28,963 bases of DNA from a virus. Below, piece by piece: positions 23,488-28,573 of this stretch. How positions within the stretch are numbered: position 1 is the first letter of the stretch; each line of letters begins with the position of its first letter. Position numbers and translations under genes: made by a program. Below the pieces are notes generated by a model. That model had not been told where the DNA came from. It did no database searches and worked only from the letters and a program-made list of their open reading frames with translations. The stretch lies in IMG/VR virus record IMGVR_UViG_3300046000_004265, positions 1 through 28,963 of that record. One strand, written 5' to 3'.

Positions 23488-23565
23488 ATAGTAAATATTT
23501 TTAAATTATTTTGGTACATATTTAGACCAATGGTAAAGAAACTTTACTAACTTTTATTTGGTCGT

Positions 23566-23670
23566 ATACATTATATAATGTATTATATATTATATACTAT
23601 ATTATATAATATATACTATATTATTTAATTAATACTATATTCTATAATAAATAATAAATAGTATATTATA
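23566..23670. repeat. A/T-only repeat tract with 19-bp-spaced TACTATATT
   Basis: The tract is almost wholly A and T. TACTATATT occurs at 23595, 23614 and 23633, exactly 19 bp apart, and the longer TATATACTATATTAT occurs at 23591 and 23610. Two perfect palindromes are present: ATACATTATATAATGTAT (23566-23583) and TATATTATATAATATA (23598-23613). It could be a DNA-unwinding element, an operator array or a promoter cluster. Confidence 0.6.
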
Positions 23671-23935
23671 TACGGACTACTTTACCAACTATATTGAATT
23701 TGTGTTAGTTATCTTTTATAGTGGTGTGGGTTATGTTATGCGATTGAGACAGTAACAAATTGTATATAAAATAAAGTACTTAAACAGTACCAATAACTAA
23801 CCTATTTAACATAATACTAATTATAAGACAATTTTGTACTTGATTAACAGACGATTAAATATTATATATTTATACCATATACCCCCTACCCACTTTATTC
23901 GTACAACGAAAGTTTTCGTACCCTTGTGCCTCTCA

Positions 23936-23943
23936 TATTTTTG
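23936..23943 (+). promoter_or_regulatory. Candidate -7 element (TATTTTTG)
   Basis: This matches TAnnTTTG upstream of the tRNA-like segment on the + strand. The expected -33 position reads TTTTCG, a poor match, so support is low. Confidence 0.25.
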
Positions 23944-23990
23944 ATATAAAACATTGTTTTCACAAATTTTAATATTTGATATATATGTTG

Positions 23991-23998
23991 TAGCTTTG
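23991..23998 (+). promoter_or_regulatory. Candidate -7 element (TAGCTTTG)
   Basis: This matches TAnnTTTG. A transcript from it would begin about 30 nt before the tRNA-like segment and cover it and the packaging operon. No good -33 TTG is seen. Confidence 0.35.
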
Positions 23999-24036
23999 AC
24001 TGCTCCGCTATGGTCTCAGTATCATAGCTCAATGGA

Positions 24037-24109
24037 ATCTCGTTAGCTCAATTGGTCAAGAGCCCATCATAGTAGATGGAGTGTGTAGGTTCGAGTCCTT
24101 CACGAGATG
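24037..24109 (+). tRNA. tRNA-like element with non-canonical anticodon arm
   Basis: The acceptor stem ATCTCGT/ACGAGAT (24037-24043, 24102-24108) is a perfect 7 bp. The D stem GCTC/GAGC encloses a GG-containing loop. The T arm has the TTCGAGT loop with a 5-bp stem containing one T-T mismatch (24085-24101), and a 5-nt variable region fits. The anticodon stem CCATC/GATGG leaves a 6-nt loop (ATAGTA) with no base 26; if T70 is U33 the anticodon reads AGT, which is unusual in bacteria. The 3' end continues GCA, not CCA. It may be a decayed or specialised tRNA, or an attachment-site-like remnant. Confidence 0.5.
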
Positions 24110-24182
24110 CAAAGGTTTGACCATTTAAAGCTATTGGATTGAATCGGTAGTGTCCTTGAAGATGGTATCTTAAATTGATGTT

Positions 24183-24377: not shown

Positions 24378-24459
24378 TATGTTTATATTTTTAGGAGATT
24401 TTGGATGCAGGAAATCAATTCCTACGCCACCGCCAATTTCACAACCAAAAACAAAAATT

Positions 24460-24648
24460 ATGGAACCACACAAAGTAAGATTAATGATTGAACAAGAACA
24501 ACTTATTGAAAAGTTGAATAAATTAGAATGGGTGATTAATTCTACTTTATTTGAAACATTTGATGATAAAAGTAAAATATTATTACCAATACAATATAAG
24601 GCAATGCTAACATATTTAGAATGTTTAGAACAAAGAATAAAATTATAA
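24460..24648 (+). CDS. crAss001_48-related small helical protein
   Basis: From ATG at 24460, after an ideal A-rich leader (acaaccaaaaacaaaaattATG), it encodes 62 aa: MEPHKVRLMIEQEQLIEKLN, KLEWVINSTLFETFDDKSKI then LLPIQYKAMLTYLECLEQRI. A longer frame from 24379 adds 27 residues of low quality (PTPPPISQPK). The pattern R-x-x-x-E-x-x-x-L-x-x-K-[IL]-x-K-L ... LL-x-x-Q-x-x-A-M-x-x-Y-x-x-x-L-x-x-R-I is that of a widespread phage family I know as crAss001_48-related. Its function is unknown. It sits one base before the small terminase. Confidence 0.6.
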   Translation: MEPHKVRLMIEQEQLIEKLNKLEWVINSTLFETFDDKSKILLPIQYKAMLTYLECLEQRIKL

Positions 24649-24649
24649 T

Positions 24650-25186
24650 ATGAACGCAGAGTTTAAGGACATAACGAAAGAAGCATTTATCATTGCTTAC
24701 CGAGAGAATTTTGGAAATATTACTATAGCTTGTCAAGCGTGTGGTATTAGCAGAACGATGTACCAAGGATGGATGAAGAATGATATGGAGTTTAAAAAGA
24801 CTTTGGCTGAAATAGAACCAGAGGAGATTATGCTTGACTGGGGGGAGCACAAGTTAATGGAGAGGGTTACAAAGGGAGATACCCTGGCCACTATGTTTCT
24901 TTTAAAGACTAAAGGCAAGAGAAGAGGTTACATTGAAAAAACTGAGGTGGCCCATGAAGGCGATGTGGTCAAGCAAATTACGGTCAACGTAGTGAAGCCG
25001 TCAGAATTGCCTAACTTGCAGAAGCAACTTGATGGAGATGAGAATATAATAAATTTCGATACTCAGAAAGATAACAGCTTTACTGTTCCAGCCACATTGG
25101 CTAGTGAGATACCAGAGATTCCGTTATATGACCATGATAAAGGCGAGTTGCTTGATATGAATGACCAGGATGAGTACGAAGAGTAG
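24650..25186 (+). CDS. terS: Terminase small subunit
   Basis: This 178 aa protein has a helix-turn-helix near the N-terminus (NITIACQACGISRTMYQGWM, about residues 23-42), typical of small terminases that recognise the packaging site. A helical oligomerisation part follows (EIMLDWGEHKLMERVTKGDT then LATMFLLKTKGKRRGY), and an acidic C-terminal tail (ELLDMNDQDEYEE) suited to contact with the large subunit. The large subunit gene lies about 780 nt downstream rather than adjacent, which is unusual. Family-specific assignment would need a profile search. Confidence 0.8.
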   Translation: MNAEFKDITKEAFIIAYRENFGNITIACQACGISRTMYQGWMKNDMEFKKTLAEIEPEEIMLDWGEHKLMERVTKGDTLATMFLLKTKGKRRGYIEKTEVAHEGDVVKQITVNVVKPSELPNLQKQLDGDENIINFDTQKDNSFTVPATLASEIPEIPLYDHDKGELLDMNDQDEYEE

Positions 25187-25967: not shown

Positions 25968-27104
25968 ATGAACGTAACTACCAACATCGTTTTCGAGATA
26001 CTACAAAACAGCCAAAAGAAAATATCTGTTATGCAAGGCGGAACAAGGTCTGGCAAAACATACAATGTCTTGACCTGGTTTATAGTCAAACTGTTGCAAG
26101 AAAAGGGAAAAACGCTGACTATCTGCCGTTCCTCGCTGCCGTCTATCAAAGGCTCCGTAATGAGAGACTTTGTAGAGATACTGTCGAAATATGGTTTATA
26201 CTCAGAGGAAAAACACAACAAGTCAGAAAATCTTTACTTCTTAGGGGGAAACGTAGTAGAGTTCGTATCTACCGACCAACCTCAAAAGATAAGGGGTCGA
26301 AAAAGGAACTACTTGTTTATAAACGAGGCCAACGAAGTTAACTACGAATCTTGGATGCAGTTAGCATTAAGAACGACAGAAAAGATAGTTATTGACTATA
26401 ATCCATCAGATTACTATTCTTGGATATATGATAAGGTGCTTACTAGGGAAGATGCTGATTTTACCATCACAACCTATAAAGACAATCCATTCCTTGAGAA
26501 ATCATTGGTGGAAGAGATTGAAAGATTAAAGGATGCTGACCATGAATATTGGAGAGTTTACGGTTTAGGCGAAAGAGCAATATCAGAAGCAACTATTTAT
26601 ACCCATTGGAAACGCAGACGAAACTTCCCAGAAGGAGGGGAAATATTTTATGGACTGGATTTTGGCTACAACAATCAAACCGCACTGGTACGTATCAAAC
26701 ACTTCGACAATGAGATTTTCGTGGAACAACTTATCTACGAAACTAAAATGTCCACTTCGTTACTTATCGATAGGTTAAAGGCATTTGGCTTTGACAAGCG
26801 AACTGAGATATTCGCAGATGCTGCTGAGCCCAAGACTATCGCTGAGGTTAATAAGGCAGGGTTGAGCCTTAAACTGGCCATTAAAGATGTTTTTGCTGGT
26901 ATCAACAAGGTAAAGTCGTTCCCATTGATAATTAAAAGCGATTCCTTAGATTTGTTAGATGAAGTAAAGAACTATAAGTGGAAAACAGATAACGATGGCA
27001 ACACGTTAGATGAACCAGTTAAGTTTAGAGACCATTTGATGGATGCCATGAGGTATGCCATATATACTAAATTTGCCAAACCGAAAAGAGGTTGGGTGGT
27101 ATAG
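25968..27104 (+). CDS. terL: Terminase large subunit
   Basis: This 378 aa protein has the ATPase and nuclease halves of a large terminase. Walker A is GGTRSGKT (residues 24-31), Walker B region YLFINEAN (about 115-122) with Glu120 as the likely catalytic base, and the coupling segment VIDYNPSDYYSW. The nuclease domain has the acidic triad of the RNase H-like fold: GLDFGYNNQTALV with Asp230, IFADAAEPKTI with Asp283, and a final DHLMDAMRY. It motors phage DNA into the prohead and cuts the ends. Length is at the short end of the family. The Walker B acidic pair is Asn-Glu rather than Asp-Glu. It lies downstream of a long structured gap. Confidence 0.93.
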   Translation: MNVTTNIVFEILQNSQKKISVMQGGTRSGKTYNVLTWFIVKLLQEKGKTLTICRSSLPSIKGSVMRDFVEILSKYGLYSEEKHNKSENLYFLGGNVVEFVSTDQPQKIRGRKRNYLFINEANEVNYESWMQLALRTTEKIVIDYNPSDYYSWIYDKVLTREDADFTITTYKDNPFLEKSLVEEIERLKDADHEYWRVYGLGERAISEATIYTHWKRRRNFPEGGEIFYGLDFGYNNQTALVRIKHFDNEIFVEQLIYETKMSTSLLIDRLKAFGFDKRTEIFADAAEPKTIAEVNKAGLSLKLAIKDVFAGINKVKSFPLIIKSDSLDLLDEVKNYKWKTDNDGNTLDEPVKFRDHLMDAMRYAIYTKFAKPKRGWVV

Positions 27105-27142: not shown

Positions 27143-28573
27143 GTGAAATTAACTGACATATTCGGTAGTCTTAATCCTTTTCAACAAAAGGCAAAAGCTC
27201 CCAATGGGATGATACAAGTCACAAGTCCATTTTCGGATTTTGCTGGACTACTTGCTGGAAGGACTTTGTACCCAGAACTAAATCAAAGAAAATTTGTAAA
27301 CGATTACGATAACAATAGCGAGGTGTATGCTATTATCAAACGTATATCTAAAACTGTCTCAAGTGTTCCATTTTACGTTTATAAGGTAAAAGATAAGAAA
27401 GCACTTACACGTTATGCAGCACTCACTAAAAACTCAACAACTACTCAAGACTTAGCTAAGGCTGAGTTAATCAGAGTTAAAGCTGTTGATGAGATTGCTG
27501 ACTCCCCATTAAACAGTCTATTAGAAAAACCTAACGAATATCAATCACTTTCTGAATTTATTGAAAGCGTTATTGGTTATAAACTTATTTGCGGCAATTC
27601 TTTTGTTTGGGCTAACCGATTAGAAAACGGTAAGGTTCAAGAATTAGTCGTACTCCCTCCGCAATACGTTGCCATCATTTCTGATGGAACAATCAATGGG
27701 GTTGAAGGTTATTCTTTTACACTTGTCGGATGGGATTTCTTAGATGCGAAAGACGTAATCCATCTAAAATACTTCAACCCTTACTTTGACACTAATGGTT
27801 CACAACTATACGGACTTTCTCCTTTACAAGCAGCTTACAGAACTGTACAACGTAGCAATGACGCAAAAGATACATCTGTTGGTATGTTGCAGAACCAAGG
27901 ACCTAAAGGCATATTGTATGCTGATGAGTCTAATAACTTTGGCCAAGAGGAAGCAGGAAAATTAAAAGAAGATTTCTACAATCAGTACGGAACTAAGACT
28001 CAAGGTCAAATCGTTCAGAACGCTGGTAAGATTTTAATTGCTGGTGCTAAATTAGGTTGGGTTAATATGGGATTATCTCCTATTGACTTGCAATTACTAG
28101 AATCAGAAAAAGTTACGTTAAGAGAACTTTGTAATGTGTACGGTGTAAACTCTGCACTATTTAACGACCCAGATAATAAGACTTATAATAACATGAAGGA
28201 AGCTAAAAAGGAAATGCTTACGCAAGTAGTACTTCCAGAATTAGTTGCACTTCGTGATGCTTTCAATAGATTTTTTGCAGTAGAAATTGGACAAGGATTT
28301 TATATTGATTTTGATATTACTGTATTCCCAGAGTTACAAGAAGATATGAAAGAACTTTCTGCTATCTTATCTCAATCATGGTGGATTAGTCCTAATGAGA
28401 AAAGAGCAGCAATGCGTTATGATACTTCTAATGACCCAGTAATGGATGAAATATTTATACCAGCAGGTTACTTACCTATTGATGAGTTAACCATGCTACA
28501 AGACCCAAGGAACGCACAGCAACAAGGTGATTACAATGTACCCCCAGTTAAAAATTTAAAAGATGGAATTTAA
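27143..28573 (+). CDS. Portal protein (HK97-like family)
   Basis: This 476 aa protein follows the large terminase and has the portal pattern of HK97-type phages. The N-terminal part has NSEVYAIIKRISKTVSSVPF, then LNSLLEKPNEYQSLSEFIES, GYKLICGNSFVWANR and VVLPPQYVAI. A crown and stem helical region ends AKKEMLTQVVLPELVALRDA. The start is GTG at 27143, giving MKLTDIFGSLNPFQQK, typical of the family. It forms the dodecameric vertex ring through which DNA passes and on which the terminase docks. A 20-nt poorly conserved leader and a nearby -7-like site suggest its own transcript start. Confidence 0.9.
   Translation: MKLTDIFGSLNPFQQKAKAPNGMIQVTSPFSDFAGLLAGRTLYPELNQRKFVNDYDNNSEVYAIIKRISKTVSSVPFYVYKVKDKKALTRYAALTKNSTTTQDLAKAELIRVKAVDEIADSPLNSLLEKPNEYQSLSEFIESVIGYKLICGNSFVWANRLENGKVQELVVLPPQYVAIISDGTINGVEGYSFTLVGWDFLDAKDVIHLKYFNPYFDTNGSQLYGLSPLQAAYRTVQRSNDAKDTSVGMLQNQGPKGILYADESNNFGQEEAGKLKEDFYNQYGTKTQGQIVQNAGKILIAGAKLGWVNMGLSPIDLQLLESEKVTLRELCNVYGVNSALFNDPDNKTYNNMKEAKKEMLTQVVLPELVALRDAFNRFFAVEIGQGFYIDFDITVFPELQEDMKELSAILSQSWWISPNEKRAAMRYDTSNDPVMDEIFIPAGYLPIDELTMLQDPRNAQQQGDYNVPPVKNLKDGI

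Follow-up and report, generated by a model that had tools for sequence, protein, structure and literature searches.

Phage tRNAs escape tRNA-targeting defence through changes in the anticodon loop, according to the main text of van den Berg et al. 2023 (PMC10264068), and, in the part considered here of a second report (PMC11555353), phage tRNAs let phages evade retrons. The tRNAs of PMC10264068 resemble the RNA described below, which we call element A, in being phage-borne and having an altered anticodon loop. Nevertheless, these tRNAs are mutated but still serve translation, whereas in element A the length of the loop itself is changed; the main text of that paper contains none of the words insertion, deletion and 6-nt. 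B. cereus tRNA-Other, in the part considered of PMC3399842, is tRNA-like, does not work in translation and possibly lies inside a larger RNA, features that element A probably shares, but it is chromosomal, located at a genomic island and iron-responsive, whereas element A lies in a phage leader.

Canonical tRNA (RF00005) is matched by element A in length, in the acceptor, D and T arms and in the T-loop, and G18G19, A15-T48 and C74 are shared with the other tRNAs of the phage loci collected here. The differences are an anticodon loop of 6 nt, or of 5 nt in two of the relatives, the absence of base 26 and the lack of an assignable anticodon. The likeness to tmRNA is that tmRNA is a tRNA shell without an anticodon; ARAGORN, however, does not call a tmRNA at element A, whose D-arm is intact.

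A tRNA-like RNA with a short anticodon loop

The window, that is the whole stretch of DNA analysed, is a 28,963-base virus record with tailed-phage genes (tail fibre, tail tube, DnaB helicase, terminase, portal). Element A is built as follows.

24037..24109, + strand: element A, tRNA-like RNA, full cloverleaf by sequence, ARAGORN and cmscan
24037-24043/24102-24108, + strand: 7-bp acceptor ATCTCGT/ACGAGAT, then TA (sequence)
24046-24049/24060-24063, + strand: D-stem GCTC/GAGC, with loop AATTGGTCAA
24064-24079, + strand: anticodon arm CCATC-ATAGTA-GATGG, 5-bp stem with the 6-nt loop ATAGTA at 24069-24074
24080-24084, + strand: variable loop AGTGT (sequence)
24085-24101, + strand: T-arm GTAGG-TTCGAGT-CCTTC (sequence)
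24109 and 24110, + strand: discriminator G and C74, respectively (sequence)

The anticodon arm abuts the D-stem, leaving no base 26; in another reading, C26 would be followed by a 4-bp stem. ARAGORN reports 24037-24110 as tRNA-???, with anticodon (ag) and no isotype, as its only call in the window, where neither a tmRNA nor the tmRNA architecture with its tag ORF was found. In cmscan, element A matches RF00005 with 39.6 bits (E 3.3e-5), against a curated gathering score of 29, and is the sole Rfam match in the window at gathering threshold. We observe the elbow contacts of canonical tRNA in its sequence (G18G19, TTC-A58 and the 15-48 pair) but not the 7-nt anticodon loop with a readable anticodon. 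An earlier, sequence-only reading had proposed a tRNA-like element with a 6-nt anticodon loop here, which the sequence, the ARAGORN call and a covariance score above the cut-off all confirm. Its description of the arms as an almost perfect tRNA fit holds for the acceptor and the D arm, whereas in the T-stem of the window copy a single T-T mismatch had been missed (column pair 50-64 of the alignment). The folding energy of this copy is only moderately below that of shuffles (z -1.87, equalled by 9 of 200); the copy in L123, which does not have the mismatch, folds strongly (z -3.59).

Relatives were gathered via TerL relatives and a loop pattern. The same element is found in L002 and L116 (100% over 73 nt) and in L123 (98.6% over 70 nt), and diverged versions occur in L004 and L039 (80% in blastn); scanning with a D-arm pattern returned the same contigs only (5/5). 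In the alignment of the six copies, four of them distinct, 21 stem pairs were counted, with 81 of 82 cells paired (98.8%) and both-sided changes in 7 of the 21 pairs (13 cells). As a control, shifting the partners by 1-3 columns lowers pairing to 37-56% and leaves at most 3 both-sided pairs. None of 500 shuffles reaches the observed pairing, the number of cells changed on both sides or the covariation score; the number of both-sided pairs is equalled by 43 of 500, and for further pair types most shuffles (466 of 500) do as well or better. We consider the covariation support for the predicted fold to be good, resting on four sequences.

The loop is ATAGTA in the window, L002, L116 and L123, and is 5 nt long in L039 (ATTGT, stem CTCCC/GGGAG) and L004 (ATTAT, stem CTCCT/GGGAG), so that a 7-nt loop occurs in none of the six copies. 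G18G19 and TTC/A58 are kept across the versions, and A15-T48 is present in the four versions scanned. C74 is present in element A as in all 266 canonical tRNAs of the collected loci, which suggests that 3' processing is likely the same. The AGT-like anticodon read earlier is not assignable, because relatives carry ATTGT and ATTAT at the same place. A decoding tRNA with an unusual loop, for example Thr-like with AGT/TGT, or a frameshift or doublet reader, would be consistent with the T at position 33 in ATAGTA, ATTGT and ATTAT when these are read from the 5' side of the loop, as in decoding tRNAs. Nevertheless, anticodon loops of 7 nt are near universal for decoding, whereas here the loop is short by one or two bases, the implied anticodon varies (AGT, TGT, TAT) and ARAGORN assigns no isotype, which makes a decoding role very unlikely.

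A decaying phage tRNA, with its anticodon arm partly deleted and the element on its way out, was another possibility raised at the outset. This would fit the reduced RF00005 score, the T-stem mismatch of the window copy, a second element that was precisely lost or gained (window and L116 compared with L002) and the elements found in the same slot of L035 and L183, which resemble tRNAs of the Phe(GAA) type but have poor arms. Decay is nevertheless quite unlikely, because the stems co-vary and remain almost fully paired across the versions, and the loop stays short in all of them despite their differing stems. The special tRNA or tRNA mimic, also put forward by the sequence-only reading, fits best, since compensatory change keeps the fold and the loops of the relatives stay at 5-6 nt. 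Element A is a tRNA-like phage RNA whose anticodon arm is non-canonical; judging from its sequence comparisons, it is likely maintained and non-decoding.

tRNA genes are common attachment sites, and a copy of a host tRNA segment left from integration had been suggested as well. This is not supported by the gene content, as the phage integrase PF00589 is absent from all 10 records examined (29-37 kb), the window record being a fragment. The comparison with host sequences, a blastn search of 118 Bacteroidota genomes run without a positive control, returned nothing similar to element A, and the 5' half of the element is kept as well as the 3' half, so that an attachment site or integration remnant is hardly credible. 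The host is probably a member of the Bacteroidota, as we infer from TerL neighbours, MAG titles and a crAss-related protein. The contigs of comparison are metagenomic and mostly fragments; no near match was found among named phages, the distant searches gave partial matches that covered neither query to 80%, and no TerL relative occurs in the genome contigs searched.

The probable leader slot of the terminase/portal operon

Element A is followed by the genes of a terminase/portal operon and preceded by a conserved block, with the following features.

23925..24000 (roughly 23925-24005), + strand: conserved block upstream of a variable slot, ending in GTTGTAGCTTTGA (blastn, most relatives)
24007..24028, + strand: hairpin GCTATGGT-CTCAGT-ATCATAGC heading the leader (fold z -2.84, equalled by 0 of 200 shuffles)
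24110..24168, + strand: conserved spacer 3' of element A, present in L002, L004, L116 and L123
24183..24377, + strand: first operon ORF, small cysteine-rich protein, zinc-ribbon-like by eye, without Pfam match
24379..24648, + strand: crAss001_48-related protein (PF21825)
24650..25186, + strand: terminase small subunit (weak phrog match)
25968..27104, + strand: terminase large subunit
27143..28573, + strand: portal protein

The upstream block includes TAGCTTTG, which fits TAnnTTTG, a sequence we take to be the Bacteroidota -7 promoter consensus; for this reason the block is probably the promoter of the downstream operon, and the region its promoter and leader. A sigma-70 scan found no more sites than in shuffles. 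In the hairpin heading the leader, a G-U pair of the stem becomes A-U in L116, and the spacer is predicted to form a long hairpin of weak energy (fold z -0.72). Element A sits in this predicted leader, in the order upstream block, slot, first small ORF of the operon. Further upstream, the divergent intergenic region at 23553-23672 of the window is very AT-rich, with partly palindromic near-repeats in 19-nt steps, and is perhaps a replication origin.

The leader could be parsed in 127 of 363 records using fixed motifs, which miss diverged leaders, and removal of 17 repeat fetches of the same contig left 110 distinct contigs. The slot is empty in 67 of these, holds at least one tRNA-like RNA in 17, only the hairpins E1 and/or E2 in 13 and other inserts in 13. 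Phages with identical or 97%-identical TerL differ in the slot: L002 (TerL 100%) has element A and a second tRNA-like RNA that is missing from the window, and many relatives with 97% TerL have an empty slot. The slot is an accessory site with exchangeable inserts. It is not reserved for odd RNAs, given that in L026 and L064 a Trp(CCA) tRNA of normal appearance occupies it (65 and 66 bits).

The body of the second tRNA-like type in the slot is Leu-like, AGTTAGGTGGCGGAATGGTAGACGC...GCAGGTTCGAATCCTGCCCTAACT. A covariance model of this type (R1) gave 19 matches in 90 sources, the window and its relatives (838 kb), all of them in the slot, and members of this class adjoin element A in L002, L004 and L123. 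The window element A is itself one of these matches, a weak one (27.3 bits, E 0.0022), with a score that ordinary tRNAs can reach.

Other slot contents were seen along the way. E1, a hairpin-like RNA of L014, L018, L028, L032, L034, L057, L071, L173, L183, L207 and others, has an invariant GGTAAAGCCTCTT ... AACGTAACC and a loop insert of varying length; both sides of its stem change in register (ACTTGGT/ACCAAGT compared with ATATGGT/ACCATA in L183), and it has no Rfam match. E2 is a stem with loop GGGTGANTAAG and a tail ending in TAAGCACA, found in L011, L016, L018, L034, L123, L183 and L213; the stem reads GTCGTT/AACGAC or CAAGGTT/AACCTTG, as if compensated, and again there was no Rfam match in the loci scanned. 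A Ser-like tRNA shell, AGTCAAG...CTTGACT, occupies the slot in L005, L007, L011 and L016, with a very small anticodon arm by eye (CTAC-CTTA-GTGG). Mostly small ORFs are inserted in L014, L027, L031, L298, L321, L325-L327, L333, L334, L342, L345 and L353.

The position of element A, which lies with other hairpins between a conserved promoter-like block and the first ORF, would also suit a cis-acting leader, in which the fold serves the processing or stability of the operon mRNA and is not a free functional RNA, for instance if a cut by RNase P or RNase Z set the 5' end of the structural-gene transcript. B. cereus tRNA-Other offers a parallel, having been proposed, in the part considered of PMC3399842, as the tRNA-like part of a larger regulatory RNA. 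Nevertheless, the 67 empty leaders among 110 distinct contigs indicate that the operon does not need an insert, and we regard the cis-acting reading as unlikely; the setting of the shell class described below also argues against it.

tRNA shells in other phages

The slot neighbour of element A led to a wider class in unrelated phages, in which the anticodon arm of a near-constant tRNA shell is replaced by unrelated sequence of 20-119 nt. The shell, AGTYAGG...CCTRACT, was seen in L160, L163, L168, L171, L397, L415, L425, L484-L486 and about 100 further loci, with several elements per phage genome among normal tRNA sets. We found no description of this class in the literature searched, which for the most part did not include subscription papers and bioRxiv preprints.

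A scan of viral contigs with the 5' part gave 16 stretches, and a related pattern at least 120, most of which come from other phages, with contigs as long as 197 kb. GTDB genomes yielded 5 stretches, each from a MAG; three of these MAGs are Chitinophagaceae or Sediminibacterium. Among the matches listed, 136 of 147 occurrences have a matching T-arm and acceptor downstream, and 114 of the 116 distinct shell elements are shorter than 200 nt. The 5' part served to fetch the loci and is therefore constant by selection; the T-stem ACAGG, found in 88 of these 114 elements among the matches listed, is not constant for that reason. Nor are A at base 73 (101 of the same 114), C at base 74 (112) and T at base 48 (103), again among the matches listed. 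The interiors from D-stem to T-stem (20-119 nt) fall into 94 clusters, of which 79 are single, among the matches listed.

A strict tRNA-shape scan of all collected loci returned 512 elements, 458 of them distinct, and none in a mononucleotide-shuffled copy of all loci. A normal anticodon arm is present in 266 of the distinct elements and lacking in 192, the latter being an upper bound because some true tRNAs with a slightly different layout are included (such as Cys, Trp and Leu calls). The 15-48 contact is found in 249 of the 266 canonical and 170 of the 192 non-canonical elements; for the latter, chance pairing would give 143. All 266 canonical elements have C74, as do 187 of the 192 others. 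The acceptor is AGTCAGG or AGTTAGG in 154 of the 192, in loci that were selected by the shell 5' part. As a background, 181 loci fetched by unrelated, mostly unspecific patterns (1.56 Mb) gave one shell element, 5 canonical tRNAs and 3 other non-canonical calls in the strict scan; L136, one of them, also has a shell element under a looser rule.

The shell model matches 16 of 16 whole records, all chosen for holding an element, and one 62-kb record has 8 matches of at least 50 bits, low-scoring matches including ordinary tRNAs. In three stretches viewed closely, the shell elements stand among ordinary tRNAs of nearly all isotypes and many different acceptors. In 147 genomes of the Chitinophagaceae family (model at E 1e-10), a match was found only in the starting genome. 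This placement in tRNA arrays and the single match in 147 genomes suggest that the class behaves as a phage RNA class and not as a bacterial tRNA. The same three stretches speak against a cis-acting role, since the adjoining class in these large phages is found inside tRNA arrays, not mRNA leaders. One phage contig with a shell element also carries a freshwater-1 RNA (RF02979, L170:1991-2053, 73.1 bits).

Element A does not have the acceptor of this class (ATCTCGT/ACGAGAT instead of AGTYAGG/CCTRACT), but it shares a non-canonical anticodon arm in the same genomic slot. Its geometry in the window, a stem of 5 bp and a loop of 6 nt directly after the D-stem with base 26 lacking, is seen again in two other phages, L400 and L457, with acceptors AGTCATG and AGCCCGG; these were found by the shell pattern and are not TerL relatives.

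Several readings of the shell interiors were tried. An intron-bearing normal tRNA was rejected because canonical arms occur at chance level (23 of 108 distinct interiors against 21.9 +/- 3.9 in shuffles) and 20-nt interiors cannot fit an arm and an intron. An antisense payload directed at phage DNA was rejected as well: the best matches of 109 interiors compared with 4.09 Mb of phage DNA, with all tRNA-like elements masked, reached 28.5 bits against 28.3-28.8 in shuffles. For simple hairpin or anticodon-stem mimicry, 5-bp hairpins were counted at every loop size and are no more frequent than in mononucleotide shuffles. Compared with dinucleotide shuffles, folding of the interiors is slightly better (mean z -0.75, n=108); there is weak preference for a closing helix, and some 6-mers are enriched, such as GGTGGA (11 against 2.4 expected), with no meaning found.

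Proposed role and significance

For element A itself we observe the fold, compensatory change, a short loop that is kept, an exchangeable slot and a shared 3' signal. Our preferred explanation, to which we give a probability of about one half, is that it is a phage-encoded, non-decoding tRNA-like RNA released from the operon leader and acting in trans, with a decoy as the first choice of action. Element A would be transcribed within the leader of the terminase/portal operon, host tRNA 5' and 3' processing would free it and CCA would be added. The freed element may then persist in an L shape, its anticodon arm non-standard, and probably act in trans on a host tRNA-handling factor, possibly as a decoy or competitor for a host enzyme that targets tRNA, such as an anticodon nuclease or a similar defence.

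A decoy or competitor is favoured because a non-decoding RNA cannot replace a cleaved tRNA. We infer the target and the benefit, the decoy by likeness to published phage tRNAs, and taken alone the decoy step is doubtful. The operon, which contains structural genes, looks late, whereas an anti-defence RNA might be expected early. T4-type RNA ligase 1 (PF09511), a tRNA-repair enzyme, is absent from 14 of 17 records tested, including the window record and its two relatives tested, which also counts against a decoy; its presence in the other three (G008, G013 and G014, the records of L425, L368 and L372) hints weakly that anticodons are cleaved in the hosts concerned. RtcB was found in none of the 17 records. 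The preferred explanation as a whole is weakened by the small number of distinct versions of element A, only four, and by the T-stem mismatch and moderate folding energy of the window copy.

It is possible, though speculative, that the tRNA shell of these bacterial phages serves as a scaffold, in which a near-constant acceptor/D/T body displays a fast-changing RNA domain at the site of the anticodon arm, with element A a small member by function and the RNAs passed between phages as cassettes that counter or exploit host tRNA-handling systems. In this scaffold reading, the phages are those of environmental bacteria, probably Bacteroidota, and the body is made and processed like a tRNA.

If this is true, some phage tRNA genes labelled 'undetermined' would be a separate RNA class and not broken tRNAs, a class made of a constant shell and a variable head, often with several members per genome beside complete normal tRNA sets. 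It would provide a concrete test of phage tRNA roles beyond codon supply, and its members would be natural tRNA scaffolds carrying an exchangeable RNA domain.
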